NCBI RefSeq assembly: GCF_001523745.2
Contig: NZ_CP013386.1
Location: 3,720,001-3,784,000 of the forward strand
Reading direction: 5' to 3'
DNA: 64,000 nucleotides
Origin: Burkholderia mayonis
Lineage (GTDB): Bacteria > Pseudomonadota > Gammaproteobacteria > Burkholderiales > Burkholderiaceae
The translations under genes and the position numbers were made by a program. The notes under the pieces were generated by a model. The model searched no databases and was not told the origin of the DNA. It saw only the letters and a list, made by a program, of their open reading frames with translations. Positions 6,902 through 52,570 of this stretch are shown one piece after another; positions within the stretch are counted from its first letter, which is position 1; the number at the start of each line of letters is the position of its first letter.

Positions 6902-7444
6902 TTACTGCCGCACCGGCTTCTTCGCGAGCTTGCGCTGCAGCGTGCGGCGGTGCATGTTGAGCGCGCGCGCGGTCGCCGAGATGTTGTTGTTGTTCTCCGC
7001 GAGCACGCGCTGGATGTGCTCCCATTCGAGCCGGTCGACCGACAGCACGACCGGATTCTCGAGCGCCTCTTCGGCCTGCACTTCGCTCGCGTTCGTCTGC
7101 AGCGCGGCGAGGATCGACTCGACGTTCGCCGGCTTCGCGAGATAGTTGTCCGCGCCGTCCTTCACCGCCTGCACCGCGGTCGCGATGCTCGCGTAGCCCG
7201 TCAGCACGAGGATCCGCGCATCGGGCTGCAGATCGCACAGCGGCGCGATGAGGCTCAGGCCCGAGTCGTCGCCGAGGTGCAGGTCGACGGTGATGAACTG
7301 GAATTTCTCGGCGCCCGCGAGCTTGAGCGCCTCGTCCTTGTTGTGCGCCTGCCGCACCACGTAGCCGCGGCGCTCGAGCCCGCGCGCCAGCGTGCCGGCA
7401 AACACTTCGTTGTCGTCGATCACGAGGAAATTCTTGTCGCTCAT
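6902..7444 (-). CDS. regA: RegA/PrrA/ActR-type redox response regulator
   Basis: Response regulator of 180 residues. The receiver domain has the acidic pair at 10-11 and the phospho-acceptor Asp at about 54 (TVDLHLGDDSG), then Lys in YLAKP. A short linker leads to a Fis-type helix-turn-helix, NNNNISATARALNMHRRTLQRKL, nearly identical to RegA/PrrA DNA-binding helices. The start at 7444 places GGAG 8 nt upstream; an in-frame ATG two codons earlier (7450) sits too close to it. It lies 19 bp downstream of its kinase gene. RegBA systems control respiration, and in some bacteria carbon and nitrogen fixation, in response to redox state; the targets here are unknown. Confidence 0.88.
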   Translation of the reverse strand: MSDKNFLVIDDNEVFAGTLARGLERRGYVVRQAHNKDEALKLAGAEKFQFITVDLHLGDDSGLSLIAPLCDLQPDARILVLTGYASIATAVQAVKDGADNYLAKPANVESILAALQTNASEVQAEEALENPVVLSVDRLEWEHIQRVLAENNNNISATARALNMHRRTLQRKLAKKPVRQ

Positions 7445-7463
7445 TTGCATCACTCCGTCTTGT

Positions 7464-8744
7464 CTATCCGTTTCCGTTCGCCATCTCGGCCGCGACCTGG
7501 CGCGCAACCGGCAGCCGCAGGATCGCCCGCGTGCCCCGCGGCTGCGCGGCGGCAAGCTCGATCGAGCCGTCCAAGCGCGCCGCCGCGCTGAACGCCAGAT
7601 ACAGGCCAACCCCATGGCCGCCCTGCGTGCTGTCGACCGGCGCCGCGCCGAGCGCGTCGCGCAACGCAGCCGGGATGCCCGGTCCGTTGTCGCATACTTC
7701 GAACTCGATCTCGTCGCGCGCGCCGTCGTGCGCGATCGTTGCCATCAGCGTAACGCGATCGCGGCTCGCGCGCGCGGCATTGTCGAGCAAGATGGTCAGG
7801 ATCTGGCCGACCGCGACCGTGTCGTCGAGCGCGACGCCCACGGGCTGCGGCCCCCGCCGCTCGAACAGCACGTGCGGATGGCGCAGCCGCCAGTGCTCGA
7901 CGAACGTGTCGAGCCATTCGGCGGCCGGCTGCCGGCTCGGCCGCTCCGACGCGCGGCTTCTGAGGCGCGCGAGCGCCGACGTGCACTGCGACATCTGCTC
8001 CTCGAGCACCTTCAGGTCGGCATCGTAGCGCGCAAGCCCCGCGTCCGTGCGAGCGGCCTCGCGCAATTCCTCGGTCAGCATCGCGATCGTCGACAGCGGC
8101 GTGCCCATCTCGTGCGCGACCGTGGCCGCCTGCACGCCGAGCGCGACCGCGCGCTCGTCGCGCAGGAGGGCCTGCTGCGCCTCGCCGAGCGCCGCGTCGC
8201 GCTGGCGCAGCGCGCTCGACATCCGCGCGACGAACCACGCGATGAGCCCGACGCTCACCATGAAGTTCACCCACATTCCCGCACGGAAATAATCGAACAG
8301 ATTCGCCGGATTATCCAGGTTGAGCGGCACCGAATCGAAGCCGAGCGCGAGATAGCAGGCGACCGCGAACGCCGCGAGCCAAATCATCAGGTGCCACGGC
8401 AGCACTGCGGCCGCGATCGCGAGCGACGGCAGATAAAGCGACACGAACGGGTTCGTCGTCCCGCCGGACAGGAAGAGAAGCGCCGACAGCGCGCCCAGGT
8501 CGACCCACAGCTGGCCGAGCAGCTCGAAGTTGGTCTCGGGCCGCGCGCGCAGCACGCGCACCCACGTGAGCGCGTTGAAGACGATTTCGAGCGCGATCAC
8601 CATCAGCATCGCGGGCAACGGCAGATGGACGCCGAAATAGGCCTGTACGACGGCGATCGTGACGAGTTGGCCGATGATCGCGAGATTGCGCAACCAGAAC
8701 AGATGGCTCAGGTTGACGCGTCCGGTGGTGGTGATTCGTTGCAT
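7464..8744 (-). CDS. regB: RegB/PrrB-type redox sensor histidine kinase
   Basis: Membrane sensor kinase of 426 residues with about six N-terminal hydrophobic helices. The loop GGTTNPFVS (residues 94-102) matches the conserved quinone-sensing segment of RegB. The phospho-acceptor is His211 in VAHEMGTPLST. Cys254 (EEQMSQCTS) corresponds in position to the redox-active cysteine of RegB. The ATPase domain has the N box (LLDNAARAS), G1 (DNGPGIP) and a G2-like GGHGVGLYLA. It phosphorylates the adjacent RegA-like regulator. Cysteine equivalence is by pattern, not alignment. Confidence 0.88.
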   Translation of the reverse strand: MQRITTTGRVNLSHLFWLRNLAIIGQLVTIAVVQAYFGVHLPLPAMLMVIALEIVFNALTWVRVLRARPETNFELLGQLWVDLGALSALLFLSGGTTNPFVSLYLPSLAIAAAVLPWHLMIWLAAFAVACYLALGFDSVPLNLDNPANLFDYFRAGMWVNFMVSVGLIAWFVARMSSALRQRDAALGEAQQALLRDERAVALGVQAATVAHEMGTPLSTIAMLTEELREAARTDAGLARYDADLKVLEEQMSQCTSALARLRSRASERPSRQPAAEWLDTFVEHWRLRHPHVLFERRGPQPVGVALDDTVAVGQILTILLDNAARASRDRVTLMATIAHDGARDEIEFEVCDNGPGIPAALRDALGAAPVDSTQGGHGVGLYLAFSAAARLDGSIELAAAQPRGTRAILRLPVARQVAAEMANGNG

Positions 8745-8761
8745 CCGCGCAGTTTACCTTC

Positions 8762-9004
8762 TTAGTCCTCGCGCGCCGGGCGGTCGCCCCCTTCGCTTGC
8801 GGCGACGCGCCGGGCGATCTCGTCGGCGAGACACTCCGGACACAGGCAGCGCGCGCCCGTCGCGGGCTGCGCGCCCGGCGGCAGGCTCGGCATCGCCGCG
8901 CACCAGCAGGTGAACGGACGCGTGCGGGCGCCGCAGTCGAATGCGCTGCCGCAGCGCGGGCAGCGCTTGCTGATCAGGCCGGACGAAGCGGCGGGCACGG
9001 TCAT
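8762..9004 (-). CDS. Cysteine-rich CWC-family small protein
   Basis: An 80-residue protein with CPRCGSAFDCG near the N-terminus, then CWC, then CLCPEC: the spacing of the Cys-rich CWC family (PF14375), probably a metal-binding fold of unknown function. The start at the ATG of 9004 is preferred over an upstream TTG at 9037. It is the first gene of the minus-strand cluster and ends 17 bp before the RegB-type kinase, so it is probably co-transcribed. A link to redox sensing is only suggested by position. Confidence 0.7.
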   Translation of the reverse strand: MTVPAASSGLISKRCPRCGSAFDCGARTRPFTCWCAAMPSLPPGAQPATGARCLCPECLADEIARRVAASEGGDRPARED

Positions 9005-9329
9005 CGCGGATTGGCCGGGTCGAGCCGGAATGGGCAATAAAGGACGAAAGGGCGAGCATCGGCGCCTGCCGGGACAGCCGCCCCGCGACCTCGACGCGAC
9101 CGCTCGGCAACCGCCTCGCGGCCGCAGCCGAGCACTACGCCCCTAGCATAAGCGCCGTACGCGGAAATTGCATGCGGATTGCGCAGGAAAACCCCACTTT
9201 TCGGTCGGCGACCCGGGGTTGCCGCGCGCGCTTTCCACATCGGCCAAACGGCCAAAAACCCCATGCTGCGCCGCGCCACTCCTGTACAATTCGGCCTGTT
9301 TCAACCCGTTTCGCACCAGAGCCGCCGCC
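9005..9329. promoter_or_regulatory. Divergent intergenic region, CWC/regBA and argB promoters
   Basis: No gene is supported in these 325 bp. TACAAT at 9285-9290 is a plausible -10 for argB, with a leader of roughly 33 nt, but no good -35 is visible. Promoter elements for the minus-strand cluster were not identified. Confidence 0.4.
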
Positions 9330-10229
9330 ATGTCCGAGCCGATCGACCTCTCGCAGATCTCCCCCGTACTGAAAGCCGAAGTCCTCGCGGAGGCGCTGCC
9401 TTACATTCGCCGCTACCACGGCAAGACCGTGGTCATCAAATACGGCGGCAACGCGATGACGGAAGAACGGCTCAAGCAAGGCTTCGCGCGCGACGTGATC
9501 CTGCTGAAGCTCGTCGGCATCAATCCGGTGATCGTGCACGGCGGCGGCCCGCAGATCGACCAGGCGCTCAAGAAGATCGGCAAGCAGGGCACGTTCATCC
9601 AGGGGATGCGCGTCACCGACGAAGAAACGATGGAAGTCGTCGAATGGGTGCTGGGCGGCGAGGTGCAGCAGGACATCGTCACGCTGATCAACCACTTCGG
9701 CGGCCACGCAGTCGGCCTGACGGGCAAGGACGGCGGCCTCATCCACGCGCGCAAGCTGATGATGCCGGATCGCGACAACCCGGGCCAGTATGTCGACATC
9801 GGCCAGGTCGGCGAGGTCGAGACGATCAACCCGGCTGTCGTGAGGGCGCTGCAGGACGACGCGTTCATCCCGGTGATCTCGCCGATCGGCTTCGGCGAAG
9901 ACGGCCTCTCGTACAACATCAATGCGGACCTCGTCGCCGGCAAGCTCGCGACCGTGCTGAACGCCGAGAAGCTCGTGATGATGACGAACATTCCCGGCGT
10001 GATGGACAAGGAAGGCAACCTGCTGACCGATCTATCCGCGCGCGAAATCGACGCGCTGTTCGAAGACGGCACGATCTCGGGCGGCATGCTGCCGAAGATC
10101 TCGTCGGCGCTCGACGCAGCGAAGAGCGGCGTGAAGTCGGTGCACATCGTCGACGGCCGGATCGAGCACTCGGTGCTGCTCGAGATTCTGACCGAGCAGC
10201 CGTTCGGCACGATGATCCGCTCGCATTGA
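9330..10229 (+). CDS. argB: Acetylglutamate kinase
   Basis: Second step of arginine synthesis: phosphorylates N-acetyl-L-glutamate. At 299 residues it has the family length. The amino-acid kinase fold motifs are visible: VIKYGGNAM (phosphate-binding Lys/Gly), VHGGGPQI, and the [12 protein letters not shown] substrate/ATP segment. The ATG at 9330 gives [19 protein letters not shown], the typical Burkholderia start; the frame extends upstream without homology. Its stop codon overlaps the TTG start of the next gene. Confidence 0.96.
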
Positions 10230-11029
10230 GCACACGCCGTCCGCCGCCTCGCGCGGCCTCGCCGCCGGCGGGCGAGCAGACGCCCGAACGCCGGCGCGCG
10301 CGGCGCCCCCGCCCGCACGCGGGCGGCCCCGTCTGGCTCTTCGACCTCGACAACACGCTGCACCACGCGTCGCACGCGATCTTCCCGGCGATCAATCAGG
10401 CGATGACGCAGTACATCGTCGATATGCTGAAAGTCGAGCGCGCGCAAGCCGATCACCTGCGCACCCACTACACGCGCCGCTACGGCGCGGCGCTCCTCGG
10501 CCTCGCACGCCATCATCCGATTGATCCGCACGATTTCCTGAAAGTCGTCCACACGTTCGCCGACTTGCCGTCGATGGTGCGCGCCGAGCGCGGGCTCGCG
10601 CGGCTTGTCGCCGCGCTGCCCGGCCGCAAGATCGTGCTGACGAACGCGCCCGAAGCGTACGCGCGCGCCGTGCTGCGCGAGCTGAAGATCGAGCGCCTGT
10701 TCGAACGAGTAATCGCGATCGAGCACATGCGCGACCGCCACGCGTGGCGCGCGAAGCCCGACGCGACGATGCTGCGCCGGGCGATGCGCGCCGCGCACGC
10801 GCGTCTTTCGGACACGATCCTCGTCGAGGACACGCGCGGCCACCTGAAGCGCTACAAGCGGCTCGGCATCCGCACCGTCTGGATCACGGGGCACCTGCCC
10901 CGTCATCTGCCAAGCTACGGACGGCCGCACTATGTCGATCGTCGCATTGGTTCGCTAAAATCGCTGCGATTGGGCACTCGATCGGGGCGACGAAAATGCA
11001 GCCGACTCACCCGCAGGATCCGGCAGTAA
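10226..11029 (+). CDS. HAD-superfamily hydrolase, pyrimidine 5'-nucleotidase-like
   Basis: Predicted cytoplasmic phosphatase of 267 residues. HAD motif I is FDLDNTLH, motif II is ...VLTNAP, and the motif III/IV region is KPD...[17 protein letters not shown]. This matches the YjjG/SDT1-like pyrimidine 5'-nucleotidase branch. The only plausible start before motif I is a TTG at 10226 that overlaps the argB stop codon; there is no ATG in the Arg/Pro-rich N-terminal stretch. The 3' end overlaps the slmA start by 34 bp, suggesting translational coupling of argB, this gene and slmA. Confidence 0.78.
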
Positions 11030-48262: not shown

Positions 48263-48374
48263 ACTCAGCGACGCGCTGCACGTCGCGCGCGCGGCGTGGG
48301 CGCGCTGCGCGTCCGAAGTCGACATGATCGCGACGTGCCAGGCGCGCGTGCCGCAGGCGGACAGCGATGAATAA
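48099..48374 (+). CDS. lysC: Rz1-like spanin lipoprotein (LysC), overlapping Rz
   Basis: A 91-residue lipoprotein read in the +1 frame, starting inside Rz and running past its end. The lipobox is LCAC at about residue 21 after a hydrophobic h-region (LLALCLTML), followed by Pro-rich residues, as expected for an outer-membrane o-spanin. Nested overlapping Rz/Rz1 is common in P2-like phages. Confidence 0.87.
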   Translation: MKTPPCAPGLLALCLTMLCACTQAPPSMAPTITLNECASVTRCTMPAMAPRTNGELSDALHVARAAWARCASEVDMIATCQARVPQADSDE

Positions 48375-48783
48375 GCCGAACAGCCTGCGTGCGGCGCTCG
48401 TCGCCGCGTTGCCGCAGCTCAACGCGTCGCCGGATCAACTGCTCGTGTTCGTCAACGAAGGCCGGATCGAAGCGACGGGCACGCGCACGGCGTCGTTCGA
48501 CTGCGAATACGAGTGCGAGATCATCATTCGCGATTTCATCGGCAGCGCGGACGATGTGATGATCGCCGTCGTCGAGTGGGCGCGCGCGAATCAGCCGGAC
48601 CTCGTGACGAACCGGGACGCGCGCCGCAACAGCATCACGTTTGTCGCGGACATCCTGTCGAACAACGCCGTCGACCTCGGGCTGAAAGTGAAGTTGTCGG
48701 AAAGCATCGTGGTCGGAACGGACGAAGCCGGCAACCGAACGGTCGAGCACATCGACGATGCGGCCGACGAGTGGCTCACATGA
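48367..48783 (+). CDS. R: Tail completion protein (P2 gpR)
   Basis: A 138-residue tail-completion protein. LRAALVAALPQLNASPDQLLVFVNEGRIEATGT (region) is characteristic of P2 gpR, as is the FEY-like acidic middle with CEIIIRDF. It overlaps Rz1 by 8 bp and gpS by 4 bp. Confidence 0.92.
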   Translation: MNKPNSLRAALVAALPQLNASPDQLLVFVNEGRIEATGTRTASFDCEYECEIIIRDFIGSADDVMIAVVEWARANQPDLVTNRDARRNSITFVADILSNNAVDLGLKVKLSESIVVGTDEAGNRTVEHIDDAADEWLT

Positions 48784-49247
48784 CGGACGATCTTCAGGCG
48801 CTCGAGCAGTGGGCCGGCGCGCTGCTCGCGAAGCTGTCGCCGGCGGCCCGCCGTCAACTGCTGCGCGAGCTCGGCCGCGATCTGCGCCGCGCGCAGCAGT
48901 CGCGCGTCGCCGCGCAGAGGAACCCGGATGGTTCGGCGTATGCGCCGCGGAAGGTAAAGCGCGGCGGCAAGCGCTTGCGTGAGAAGGCCGGCCGCGTGAA
49001 GCGCGAGGCGATGTTTCGGAAGCTGCGCACGGCGCGCTATTTGCGAATCGACGTAGACGACGCCGGGCTCGCGATTGGTTTCGATGAGCGGCTGTCGCGT
49101 ATCGCGCGCGTCCACCAGGAAGGCCAGAAAGCGCCCGTCGAGCCGGGCGGGCCGCTCGCGCAGTATCCGGTTCGCGTCGTGCTCGGTTTCGCGGATGCCG
49201 ATCGCGAGCTCGTGCGCGATCGGCTAATACAGTATCTCAACCGATGA
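48780..49247 (+). CDS. S: Tail completion protein (P2 gpS)
   Basis: A 155-residue phage virion morphogenesis protein needed to finish the tail. Typical segments are LEQWAGALLAKLSPAARRQLLREL, QRNPDGSAYAPRK, MFRKLRTARYL and, at the C-terminus, QYPVRVVLGFADADRELVRD. A second, diverged copy of the last ~45 codons lies at about 50,810-50,956, on the far side of the cytochrome-like gene. Confidence 0.93.
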   Translation: MTDDLQALEQWAGALLAKLSPAARRQLLRELGRDLRRAQQSRVAAQRNPDGSAYAPRKVKRGGKRLREKAGRVKREAMFRKLRTARYLRIDVDDAGLAIGFDERLSRIARVHQEGQKAPVEPGGPLAQYPVRVVLGFADADRELVRDRLIQYLNR

Positions 49248-49250
49248 CAC

Positions 49251-49272
49251 ACGCCGCCCAGATCGGCGGCGT
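49251..49272. other. Hairpin after gpS, at the cargo boundary
   Basis: An 8 bp inverted repeat ACGCCGCC/GGCGGCGT with a 6-base loop lies directly after the gpS stop and before the convergent end of the cytochrome-like gene. There is no U-run on either side. It may separate the two convergent transcripts. Confidence 0.45.
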
Positions 49273-49307
49273 AGAACGAGCGAAGTGCACTGACTGCGAA
49301 CTTCCCT

Positions 49308-50534
49308 CTATTTCTTGCCGGCACTCACGAAATCATTGGGTGGCATGACGCCGAGCAACCATGAAAAGTCCTGCTTTGTCCAATTGGTTAACGGGGCTGG
49401 CAGTCCAATCGGCTGCGTCCCCGGAAAGGCGCCGAAATATGGATTTTGGACAATTGGCTTCGTATCGCTAGTAAATGAAGCATAAGCATGGCAGGTCATG
49501 CATGACGCTTTCTTCGGAGCCACTCCTGCATTAAATTCTGTAAATGAATTTCCTAGCAATACCGGCTTCCGGACAGGAGTATCAACCCCCGAAGTATAAT
49601 TTGTTTGCACCCCAACCAAACGATAATTTTTGAATGCAATCGAAAGGTTGGCTTTATCAATTAAGGTATCCAAATCGGCTGTTCGAGAAGTCACTTGGCC
49701 GTTGCTAATCGGAGGGCTTGACCCCCATGGATCGTTACAATTTGAGTAGAGATCTGATTTGCAGCGATTCGGATTTGTAATTTCACTCTGGGGTTCGAAC
49801 GTGGCCCACACCCAATTATTTGTTAACTTTGAATTCAAATGGAAGCTGACCATAGCATAACACACGCCGTCAATTTTCTCCAAATAATATTCTTTAGAAT
49901 CAATATCACAATTAAGTTTTTCCTTGATTGAGCTGGCTGGCAGCCAATCCACCTTAATCTCGATGGCTGTTCGAGGAAAATTGATCTTTCCGTTGTTAGC
50001 GACATAATCTTTCTGCCCAGGAAGAGTTTGCAGACTATATTTGACGCTTTTCCCAGATGGAGAGGTAATAAAATCCGCAGCATCTTGATTGACATGCACC
50101 TCTTCACAGAACTCTGGATTCTTCGTCAAATTTTTTGGCACGAAAGGCAAGAAAGCGCCAGACGGCGCGTTATCTTTTGTCGTCATTGGCTGACAGGTTT
50201 TCTTAAAATCAAAATTTCTCGTTGCAAGTATGCTGGCATGCAAGCGCGTTTGATTAGCATTATTGGTGCAGTCCTTTTTGCCGCTCTTTAAACAATCTTG
50301 TTCCGGCCAAGTCTCCCATGTGAGAGGAAGATCGGTTTTCCCGGAATCGCAGTTAGCGGCAACAAAAATCTGCCATGCCAAATGTTGATATCTATTATTC
50401 CCATCTGGAATTTTAGTTGGGAGCTTGCAAGCTGCCGGATCTCTGGGCTGACCGGCATATGTTTGTGTGGAATACAAAGGAATAGTTGAATAAATTAATG
50501 CAATAGCAACGGGAATCGCATTGAGCTTCTTCAT
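49308..50534 (-). CDS. Secreted protein with CxxCH haem motif, AT-rich phage cargo (moron)
   Basis: A 408-residue protein. A Sec signal peptide (residues 1-27, ending TQTYA before GQ) is followed by a region with HLAWQIFVAANCD and LTWETWPEQ, then WVWATFEPQ, YRLVGVQTNY and, near the C-terminus, one c-type haem-binding motif Cys345-Met-Thr-Cys-His349. Further cysteines could form disulfides. The layout recalls a broad proteobacterial family of uncharacterised periplasmic CxxCH proteins, usually chromosomal. It is read against the late operon, with its own RBS (AGGGAGGG). Its GC content is far below that of every neighbour. It is probably a lysogenic-conversion gene; function unknown. Confidence 0.8.
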   Translation of the reverse strand: MKKLNAIPVAIALIYSTIPLYSTQTYAGQPRDPAACKLPTKIPDGNNRYQHLAWQIFVAANCDSGKTDLPLTWETWPEQDCLKSGKKDCTNNANQTRLHASILATRNFDFKKTCQPMTTKDNAPSGAFLPFVPKNLTKNPEFCEEVHVNQDAADFITSPSGKSVKYSLQTLPGQKDYVANNGKINFPRTAIEIKVDWLPASSIKEKLNCDIDSKEYYLEKIDGVCYAMVSFHLNSKLTNNWVWATFEPQSEITNPNRCKSDLYSNCNDPWGSSPPISNGQVTSRTADLDTLIDKANLSIAFKNYRLVGVQTNYTSGVDTPVRKPVLLGNSFTEFNAGVAPKKASCMTCHAYASFTSDTKPIVQNPYFGAFPGTQPIGLPAPLTNWTKQDFSWLLGVMPPNDFVSAGKK

Positions 50535-50755
50535 GCTCTTACCCTCCCTATGGTGGATTGCCCTGTTGCGGCGCAGTAAACTTCGCCGCCATTCTGAAAA
50601 TTGTGGGAAATATATCTCTACTTAAAATGTCCGACTTTCCTTAATCGCCTTAATGGAGTCGATCAGTATTCGATGATATATTGATCGCAGCGGCGTTATC
50701 CGGCAACTACCTGTTTTGGTAGAGCCATCGCCTCTCAACAGAAGCGAAACGACGC
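50535..50755. promoter_or_regulatory. AT-rich upstream region of the cytochrome-like gene
   Basis: 221 bp with clearly lower GC than the flanking phage DNA. On the minus strand GATATATTT (about 50,619-50,611) and neighbouring T-rich stretches are plausible promoter elements for the cargo gene, but no single -35/-10 pair stands out. Confidence 0.4.
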
Positions 50756-50809
50756 GTGCATACCTACGTGCCGGCAACTGGGTCACCTGTTATTACGGTT
50801 TGCGCACTG

Positions 50810-50956
50810 ATCGCACGCGTCCTTCAGGAAGATTGGAAAGTGCCCATCGAGCCGAGCGGGCCGCTCGTGCAGTATCCGGTTCGCGTCGTGCTCGGTTTCG
50901 CGGACGCCGATCGCGAGCTCGTGCGCGATCGGCTGTTACGCTACCTAAACCGCTGA
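50810..50956 (+). pseudogene. Duplicated 3' remnant of gpS
   Basis: It encodes IARVLQEDWKVPIEPSGPLVQYP and VVLGFADADRELVRDRLLRYLNR, closely matching the last 49 residues of gpS (48,780-49,247), and ends with the same LNR-stop. The DNA is about 85-90% identical by eye over ~145 bp. An open frame from 50,756 would add 18 unrelated residues but lacks the N-terminal two thirds of gpS. It flanks the cytochrome-like gene opposite to the intact gene. Confidence 0.88.
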
Positions 50957-51715
50957 ATCGTTCGCTGCGGCATCGAGCCGGGCCGACGCGATCACGTGAT
51001 ACGCCGCATTCGTCTCGCATCCAATCCAGTGCAAGCCGGCCTCGCGCGCCGCGGCGAGAAACGTGCCCGAACCGGCGAACAGGTCGCACACGACGCCGCC
51101 GGCCGGCACGAGCCGCACGACCTCACGCGCCACGTCGAGCGGCTTCTCGGTGACGTGACGCTTCGGCAGCGGCAGACGCGACGGAAACACGCCCGGCAGA
51201 TACACATCGCTGTCGCGCATCGCGCCGCGGCTTGCCCACACGACGAATTCGGCCTGCTGCGCGAAGCCGCCGCGCCGCGGTCGCGCGCGGCCGGGCGTCT
51301 TGTCCCATACCGCGACGCCGCGCAGGATCAAGCCGGCCGCCTGCACGACATCCGTGAGCGTCGGGAGCTGCCGCCAGTCGATGAAGCACACGAGCAGGCC
51401 GCCCGACTTCAACGCGCGGCGGCATTCCGTCAGCCACGCGTGGCACCAGAACGCCCACGCGCGCTGGTCCATGTTGTCGCTGTCGAAGTCCTCGTACTCG
51501 GCTTTCGTGCCGCTGTTGATGTACTTCTCGCTCGGCGGCCGCGTGCGCGCCGACGTGTGCAGCCCCCCGGACGAATACGGCGGATCGGTGAACACCATAT
51601 CGATTGAAGCATCGGGCAGCATGCGCGCCATCGTGAGCGCGTCCATTGCGTGAAGTCGGTCGAGTAGCGGGGCAAGATCGGCCGCGGGCGCGGCGTCGGT
51701 AGGTTGAATCGTCAT
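50945..51715 (-). CDS. Orphan beta-class DNA methyltransferase
   Basis: A 256-residue N6-adenine or N4-cytosine methyltransferase. Motif IV is DPPY (44-47) and precedes motif I FAGSGT (213-218), the beta-class order. The specificity region lies between, with KRHVTEKPLDVAREVVRL before motif I. No restriction gene is adjacent, so it is likely a protective or regulatory phage methylase. The ATG at 51715 is preferred over a longer frame. The 3' end overlaps the gpS remnant by about 12 bp. The gene faces against the late operon. Confidence 0.9.
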   Translation of the reverse strand: MTIQPTDAAPAADLAPLLDRLHAMDALTMARMLPDASIDMVFTDPPYSSGGLHTSARTRPPSEKYINSGTKAEYEDFDSDNMDQRAWAFWCHAWLTECRRALKSGGLLVCFIDWRQLPTLTDVVQAAGLILRGVAVWDKTPGRARPRRGGFAQQAEFVVWASRGAMRDSDVYLPGVFPSRLPLPKRHVTEKPLDVAREVVRLVPAGGVVCDLFAGSGTFLAAAREAGLHWIGCETNAAYHVIASARLDAAANDSAV

Positions 51716-51889
51716 CGTGTTGCGAGAGTAAAAAATGCGCGCGCGGCGCTCGCCGCACGCGTCGTTGCGTGTATCGAGCGGCCATTGTCGACGCACGTTT
51801 CACTGCGCGGATCACGAACGCGCTGTACCCGGCGGCACGACAAAGGCGAGTGCTCGCGCCACGCGCGGGCGACCGGCACCATTGCCGGT

Positions 51890-52570
51890 ATGGATGCGAA
51901 CGAAATTCAACGGCAAGCACGCAACGTCGTGCGCAAAGGCTCGATTCTCGATGTCGACCACAAGGCGGGCCTCTGCCGCGTGTCGGTCGGCGAGTCGGAC
52001 GACGACGGCCTGCAAACGAACTGGATTCCCTGGCTCGCGCCGGCGGCCGGTAACACGCGCGAGTGGTCGCCGCCGACGAAGGGCGAGCAGGTCGTCGTGC
52101 TCGGCGCGATGGGCGACCTTGCGCAAGGCGTCGCGCTGCGCGGCGTTTTCTCCGACACGTTCCCCGCGCCCGACAACCTGCCGAACACGCACACCCGCGT
52201 CTACGCGGACGGCGCGCGTGTGAGCTACGACCACGACGCGCATGCGCTCACGGCCGAGCTGCCCGCCGGCGCGACCGTGCGCGTTGTCGCGCCCGTGTCG
52301 ATCACGGTCGAGACGGAATCGGCGACCGTGAAGGCCGCATCGGTCACGCTCGACGCCGAGCAGACGACCTGCACGGGCGCATTGCTCGTAAAAGGGCCGC
52401 TTGCGTTCGAGTCTGGCATGACGGGCTCGGGCAGCGCGGGCGGCGGCAACGTCATGCGCATCGACGGCGCGGCCGATTTCACGGGCGAAGTGCGCTCGAT
52501 GGGCAAGAGCGTGCCGCACCACACGCACCAGGCGCGTGGCGAATCGGCCGAAGTGAGCCAGCCGCTATGA
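51890..52570 (+). CDS. V: Baseplate spike protein (P2 gpV)
   Basis: A 226-residue membrane-piercing baseplate spike. N-terminal OB-fold (RVSVGESDDDGLQTNWIPWLAP), the GEQVVVLGAMGDLAQGVALRGVFS block, then a repeated beta-helix and a His-containing tip (VPHHTHQ), as in gpV. The ATG at 51890 fits the family start; the 170 bp between the methyltransferase and this gene presumably carries the promoter for V-G. Confidence 0.92.
   Translation: MDANEIQRQARNVVRKGSILDVDHKAGLCRVSVGESDDDGLQTNWIPWLAPAAGNTREWSPPTKGEQVVVLGAMGDLAQGVALRGVFSDTFPAPDNLPNTHTRVYADGARVSYDHDAHALTAELPAGATVRVVAPVSITVETESATVKAASVTLDAEQTTCTGALLVKGPLAFESGMTGSGSAGGGNVMRIDGAADFTGEVRSMGKSVPHHTHQARGESAEVSQPL

Follow-up and report, generated by a model that had tools for sequence, protein, structure and literature searches.

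A predicted P460-like c-type haem protein gene in the late operon of a P2-like Burkholderia prophage

What does an AT-rich gene on the minus strand do in the late operon of a P2-like prophage, and how did it come to lie there? We asked this of a 64,000-nucleotide stretch of the Burkholderia mayonis genome (contig NZ_CP013386.1; the whole stretch is hereafter the window), in which an open reading frame (ORF) at 49308-50534, here called the cargo gene, is located between the phage gene S and a DNA methylase gene. A preliminary description, made from the sequence, had proposed phage-borne cargo encoding a secreted protein with a cytochrome c-like motif. The answer we favour, with somewhat more confidence than doubt, is that the gene encodes a predicted exported, enlarged c-type haem protein of the cytochrome P460/cytochrome c'-beta type, likely a P460-type enzyme acting on nitric oxide (NO), hydroxylamine or peroxide in lysogens.

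The cargo gene and its protein family

The features of the cargo gene are the following.

49308..50534, minus strand: cargo gene, 408 amino acids (aa), predicted P460-like c-type haem protein (from ORF, composition, family and fold)
50454..50534, minus strand: signal-peptide-like N-terminus, residues 1-27 (judged by eye from the sequence)
49488..49502, minus strand: CxxCH, residues 345-349, predicted haem attachment site with H349 as predicted proximal ligand (from family conservation)
49953..49955, minus strand: K194, which pairs with the haem-cross-linking lysine of cytochrome P460 (from profile pairing and conservation)
49839..49841, minus strand: H232, which pairs with the P460 distal carboxylate position (from conservation, and pairing in two of four profile sets)
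50542..50548, minus strand: ribosome-binding site GGGAGGG, 7 bases 5' of the ATG (from the sequence)
50535..50809, no strand assigned: AT-rich stretch (49% GC) from the cargo start to an orphan copy of the S 3' end, belonging to the insert (from composition)

The ORF list and translation give an ATG start and a single CxxCH. The GC content of the gene is 44.0% (43.8% at third codon positions, GC3) versus 62.8-69.3% (GC3 80-86%) in R, S, the methylase gene and V, and 66% in the window. The twelve lowest-GC 1227-base segments of the 64 kb, taken in steps of 100, all start within 48901-50001, and the cargo gene is the lowest-GC gene-sized stretch in the window. It resembles a moron in being an additional gene of foreign composition that lies among conserved genes of the phage and is lacking in related phages.

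These data bear out the preliminary description as to foreign AT-rich phage cargo, the 408-residue minus-strand ORF with one CxxCH at 345-349, the signal-peptide-like start (by eye) and a ribosome-binding site of its own. Its placement of the gene between S and V stood on the S side and failed on the V side, where the next gene is the DNA methylase gene, convergent with S. A promoter dedicated to the gene is not supported: a scan of 49200-50830 gave four promoter-like sites versus 3.0 +/- 1.6 in shuffled sequences, which is background, and no site upstream of the cargo start on the minus strand. The stops of S and the cargo gene, which face each other, are separated by a GC-rich inverted repeat (CGCCGCC...GGCGGCG, 49250-49274), noted by eye; it has no T run and is absent from the terminator scan list.

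One search returned 208 homologues at E<=0.001, from Burkholderiales, Acidobacteria, rhizobial plasmids and others; the best 120 were listed, and 47 of those were aligned with the query (alignment A1). A scan of genome contigs with the single protein found no relative, and the same scan with the alignment as query found 47 loci. The family is patchy: 3 of the 65 genomes examined in the genus have it, as do 7 of the 398 in a phylum sample (own genome included), and the window's own genome has one copy. It was found on 38 plasmid records (29 from Rhizobium) and matched none of 50,697 phage records. A single viral contig, from another genome record, carries a family gene; it is 97.4% identical to the window over 4.26 kb, cargo included, and its cargo gene differs in three codons, one of them nonsynonymous.

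All 46 close members that cover the CxxCH keep it, and so do 47 of 49 loci from the wider set, the exceptions being L036, where the contig ends before the motif, and L044, which reads CxxCQ. Among eleven further loci it lies within the matched stretch of eight; in L194, L197 and L198 the main match stops before it. A1 members share ten further near-invariant cysteines. We examined an alignment of 90 sequences, comprising the 48 A1 members and 42 of the 49 loci (L004 and L005 are one gene; L014, L036, L037, L040, L044, L050 and L051, which are short, fragmentary or weak, were left out). In this alignment K194, H232, K236, W241, W243, S330, the CxxCH, D389 and W392 are kept with few exceptions, and most of the ten extra cysteines are lost in the distant set while the CxxCH is kept. 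K194 is present in 48/48, 25/25 and 16/16 sequences (one gap) of three alignment sets, without variation, and H232 in 47/48, 25/25 and 16/17. The preliminary description had held that homologues lacking the CxxCH would make the motif a coincidence; only one of the 48 loci covering it lacks it. Because it is conserved family-wide, even where other cysteines are lost, the CxxCH is no coincidence and, on the aligned sequences, is a real family feature.

Clustering of neighbouring ORFs at the 49 loci (top 25 clusters) yielded the family itself and its frame shadows, with no conserved operon partner; other recurrent clusters were limited to Bradyrhizobium and similar loci. Three annotated plasmid loci had no neighbour in common by name. 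By eye, Bradyrhizobium relatives at L047, L048 and L049 (~7200-11000) lie beside Rieske-like and small haem-protein-like ORFs. Two homologues, P0097 and P0117, have an additional MVL (mannan-binding) domain, PF12151.

Probable relation to cytochrome P460 and cytochrome c'-beta

Structures of cytochrome P460 and cytochrome c'-beta ranked first, with modest scores, for two structure models, one of the window protein and one of a 24%-identical relative. For the window protein the best fold matches were the c'-beta structures 7ead and 9hqt, tied with P460. P460 proteins were gathered with PF16694, and 38 sequences were used for profiles. Compared at full length, the P460 and family profiles scored 32.8, a value reached by none of 200 column shuffles (maximum 23.3), and in each of eight further profile tests none of 100 shuffles scored as high.

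In six of these eight tests FPRTAIEIKVDW was aligned with FPDGTVLVKLAW, which places K194 opposite the P460 lysine; in the other two the best local alignment spans the CxxCH end only. A plain alignment by hidden Markov model (HMM) gave the same pairing with a low score. We take the paired lysine to be Lys106, because the K106L structure 6w6n differs there. H232 lies opposite the distal carboxylate position in two of four profile sets, the two in which that position is aligned, and is less certain than K194 because the strand before the CxxCH aligns in two competing ways. Other acids, E144, E145 and E192, could be in the pocket.

According to the available text of PMC11928373, P460s are defined by the lysine-haem cross-link, and their oxidation of hydroxylamine is tied to a distal carboxylate. 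The same text gives absorption near 440 nm (ferric) and 460 nm (ferrous) for P460 haems, and near 400 and 432 nm for ordinary haems of this fold.

No Pfam or NCBIfam family claims the cargo protein. Ordinary cytochrome c, NapB and MauG were rejected as candidates, giving only stray weak matches (NCBIfam NapB-type, 0.061; NapB and MauG, one of 48 members each, best 0.021). In PHROG the cargo protein matched phrog_19967 at 0.015, a family with no function assigned, and two P460 queries matched nothing. The viral fold library gave no match with E<=0.001, and a sequence search of solved structures gave a best E of 0.2, to an unrelated structure. A literature search found no phage-borne cytochrome or P460, which does not prove their absence.

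The slot and the duplicated S tail

The prophage is colinear with Burkholderia phages Momento, Menos, KL3, Milagro and Musica, which cover 77-85% of 24.5 kb at 82-83% identity. The genes around the cargo are these.

48367..48783, plus strand: phage gene R, tail completion (PF06891, E 1.6e-41)
48780..49247, plus strand: phage gene S, tail completion, intact, with the proximal repeat copy as its final 147 bp (PF05069, E 7.3e-40)
50810..50956, plus strand: orphan, decaying copy of the S 3' end, overlapping the methylase 3' end (87% direct repeat)
50945..51796, minus strand: DNA methylase gene, which converges on S and closes the slot (PF01555, E 2.3e-28)
51890..52570, plus strand: phage gene V, baseplate (phrog_9992 baseplate assembly, E 1.7e-31)

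On either side of the cargo lies one copy of a 147-bp direct repeat of the S 3' end (49101-49247 and 50810-50956; 87% identity). In KL3 and Milagro the slot is empty and the two convergent genes overlap, S by its stop and the methylase gene by its 3' end; the orphan S tail overlaps the methylase end in the same way. Identity to 17 relatives is 74-88% for the orphan tail and 78-92% for the proximal copy, and the two copies differ by nine nonsynonymous and six synonymous codons, differences that fit the orphan being a relic. With the orphan tail as relic, and S complete before the cargo, the incoming DNA therefore likely brought its own S 3' end. Judged from these repeats, the insert seems to have come with a replacement end that would keep S readable, leaving the old, decaying tail stranded beside the methylase gene. 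The slot would then be one where incoming DNA seems to supply the essential gene it breaks into with a new end, so that the phage can stay viable.

By eye, the filled loci L076, L089, L091 and L093 retain an S-tail remnant of ~20 bp at the methylase side, which coincides with the S/methylase overlap region of the empty phages. L079:4365-5052 has another orphan S tail (residues 97-160), with a small ORF of exported appearance beside it in the reverse orientation. None of the other phage genes used as queries occurs in that stretch, which is possibly the same cargo geometry after phage decay. Residues 83-159 of S match phrog_8396 (78 positions), a stand-alone phage family of S C-terminal ends that hints at recurrence of the S-tail duplication. 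An S pair in L139 (47%) was set aside because that locus has an inverted tail module.

To count slots we took the 31 of 53 loci (window included) with S identity of at least 75%, which leaves out 22 loci with lower S identity, and removed the fragments L077, L079 and L085. Among the resulting 28 loci, which are partly non-independent, the S-methylase slot is filled in 13 and empty in 15. About six unrelated cargoes occupy it.

Window and L104: gene of the predicted P460-like haem protein
L076, L090, L091 and L092: TENA/THI-4-like protein, 242-266 aa (Pfam 2.9e-5 for the L090 copy)
L089 and L093: two small exported-looking proteins
L094: 176-aa protein
L101, L109 and L116: membrane protein, 131-155 aa
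L078: another small membrane protein

Five other slot-cargo ORFs that were tested had no Pfam match at 0.01. The TENA/THI-4-like copy at L076:5773-6501 lies in a second P2-like prophage, a degenerate one, in the window's own genome. The 176-aa protein of L094 (slot positions 130-660), which has no Pfam match, contains SHG and SCHTG motifs, reminiscent of a His-Cys protease dyad.

Competing readings and known systems

The cargo protein might share the fold and bind haem covalently with K194 not cross-linked and no catalysis, as a c'-beta-like gas binder or electron carrier. Such a reading draws on the tie of 7ead and 9hqt with P460 and on an aligned position that has no distal carboxylate. We consider it unlikely, since K194 is invariant, at a position taken in c'-beta proteins by Phe, Met or other residues (PMC11928373, available text), and since the conserved H232 suggests a polar pocket. 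We rate as quite improbable that the protein is haem-free and uses the CxxCH as a thiol, disulphide or metal site. The ten near-invariant cysteines of the close members and the relative with CxxCQ would suit it; however, the CxxCH outlasts the other cysteines in distant members, sits at the same C-terminal place as in P460s and has the His ligand as part of the motif in 47 of 49 loci.

That unrelated cargoes are swapped in the slot among related phages, as exclusion genes are, recalls a superinfection-exclusion or defence moron aimed at other phages, with the haem-like fold used otherwise. PADLOC gave no match for the cargo protein, and its relatives lie outside phages, in soil bacteria and on rhizobial plasmids, and we hold this role to be more improbable still. 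Hardly credible to us is a passenger gene, functionless in the lysogen: although promoter-like sites are at background and the gene is single-copy in its own genome and confined to 3 of 65 genus genomes, its frame is open, its invariant residues are retained and the second phage contig keeps it with one amino-acid change in 408, while the adjoining orphan S tail decays.

None of 48 members matched PF16694, the Pfam model for cytochrome P460, at E<=0.1. The resemblance in sequence alone is weak, 11 of 90 members scoring above all of 880 shuffles in which the CxxCH context was kept. The CxxCQ of L044:2252-2890 is a possible loss of the proximal haem ligand, and our confidence in the P460-type reading is slightly lowered because of it.

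If the P460-type reading is right, the cargo protein would be exported and the host's cytochrome c assembly proteins (its genome has two such genes) would attach haem to C345 and C348, H349 serving as the proximal ligand. K194 would be cross-linked to the haem, and H232 would be part of a polar pocket at the site of the P460 catalytic carboxylate. Reactions of small nitrogen or oxygen species may take place there, from which the lysogen would gain protection or a redox benefit, presumably with expression in the absence of induction. A bolder proposal, which we put forward tentatively and regard as doubtful, is a disulphide-clamped, enlarged P460 branch with lysine-cross-linked haem and a catalytic histidine replacing the carboxylate, by which lysogenic conversion would arm the cell envelope with new haem-nitrogen chemistry. 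Were the P460-type reading true, a large unnamed family would be tied to a fold known for hydroxylamine oxidation or NO binding, and a temperate phage would be spreading it. The preliminary description's suggestion of an uncharacterised enzyme family is supported; its interpretation as a whole holds in part. It missed the likely P460/c'-beta relation, K194, H232, the S-tail repeat, the methylase neighbour and the other slot cargoes, and the effects on respiration and the cell surface that it envisaged are conjectural.

Compared with cytochrome P460 (PF16694; 2je2, 6amg, 6hiu), the cargo protein has in common the leading fold matches, the C-terminal CxxCH, a lysine at the cross-link position (Lys70/78/106) and the order helix, strand, helix, FPxxxxxxK strand, strand pair, CxxCH and DFxW/DYVF end. 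It differs in length (about 400 residues vs about 160), in the family's up to ten extra cysteines and probably in a His at the place of the catalytic Glu/Asp; wild-type NsP460 also has no distal carboxylate. With cytochrome c'-beta (7ead, 6hih, 7s5o) it shares the predicted fold, the CxxCH and equal fold scores, but c'-beta proteins do not have the lysine (available text of PMC11928373), and the invariant K194 stands where a hydrophobic residue would be expected of them.

Low-GC morons and insertion hotspots have been described in Burkholderia phages, some morons being expressed in the lysogen of another phage (Ronning et al., PMC2920897), and Orf30 of P2 is located between V and S (Lynch et al., PMC3091744). 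Because of these reports this kind of slot is already known: in both, as here, low-GC cargo occupies a set position within the late operon of P2-like phages, whereas the available texts neither contain the word "cytochrome" nor describe a replacement S 3' end. KL3 and Milagro share this late operon, including S and the methylase gene that converges on it, and have no cargo in the slot. Set against these systems, the slot is of a known kind; the haem-protein branch and its carriage by a phage appear to be new.
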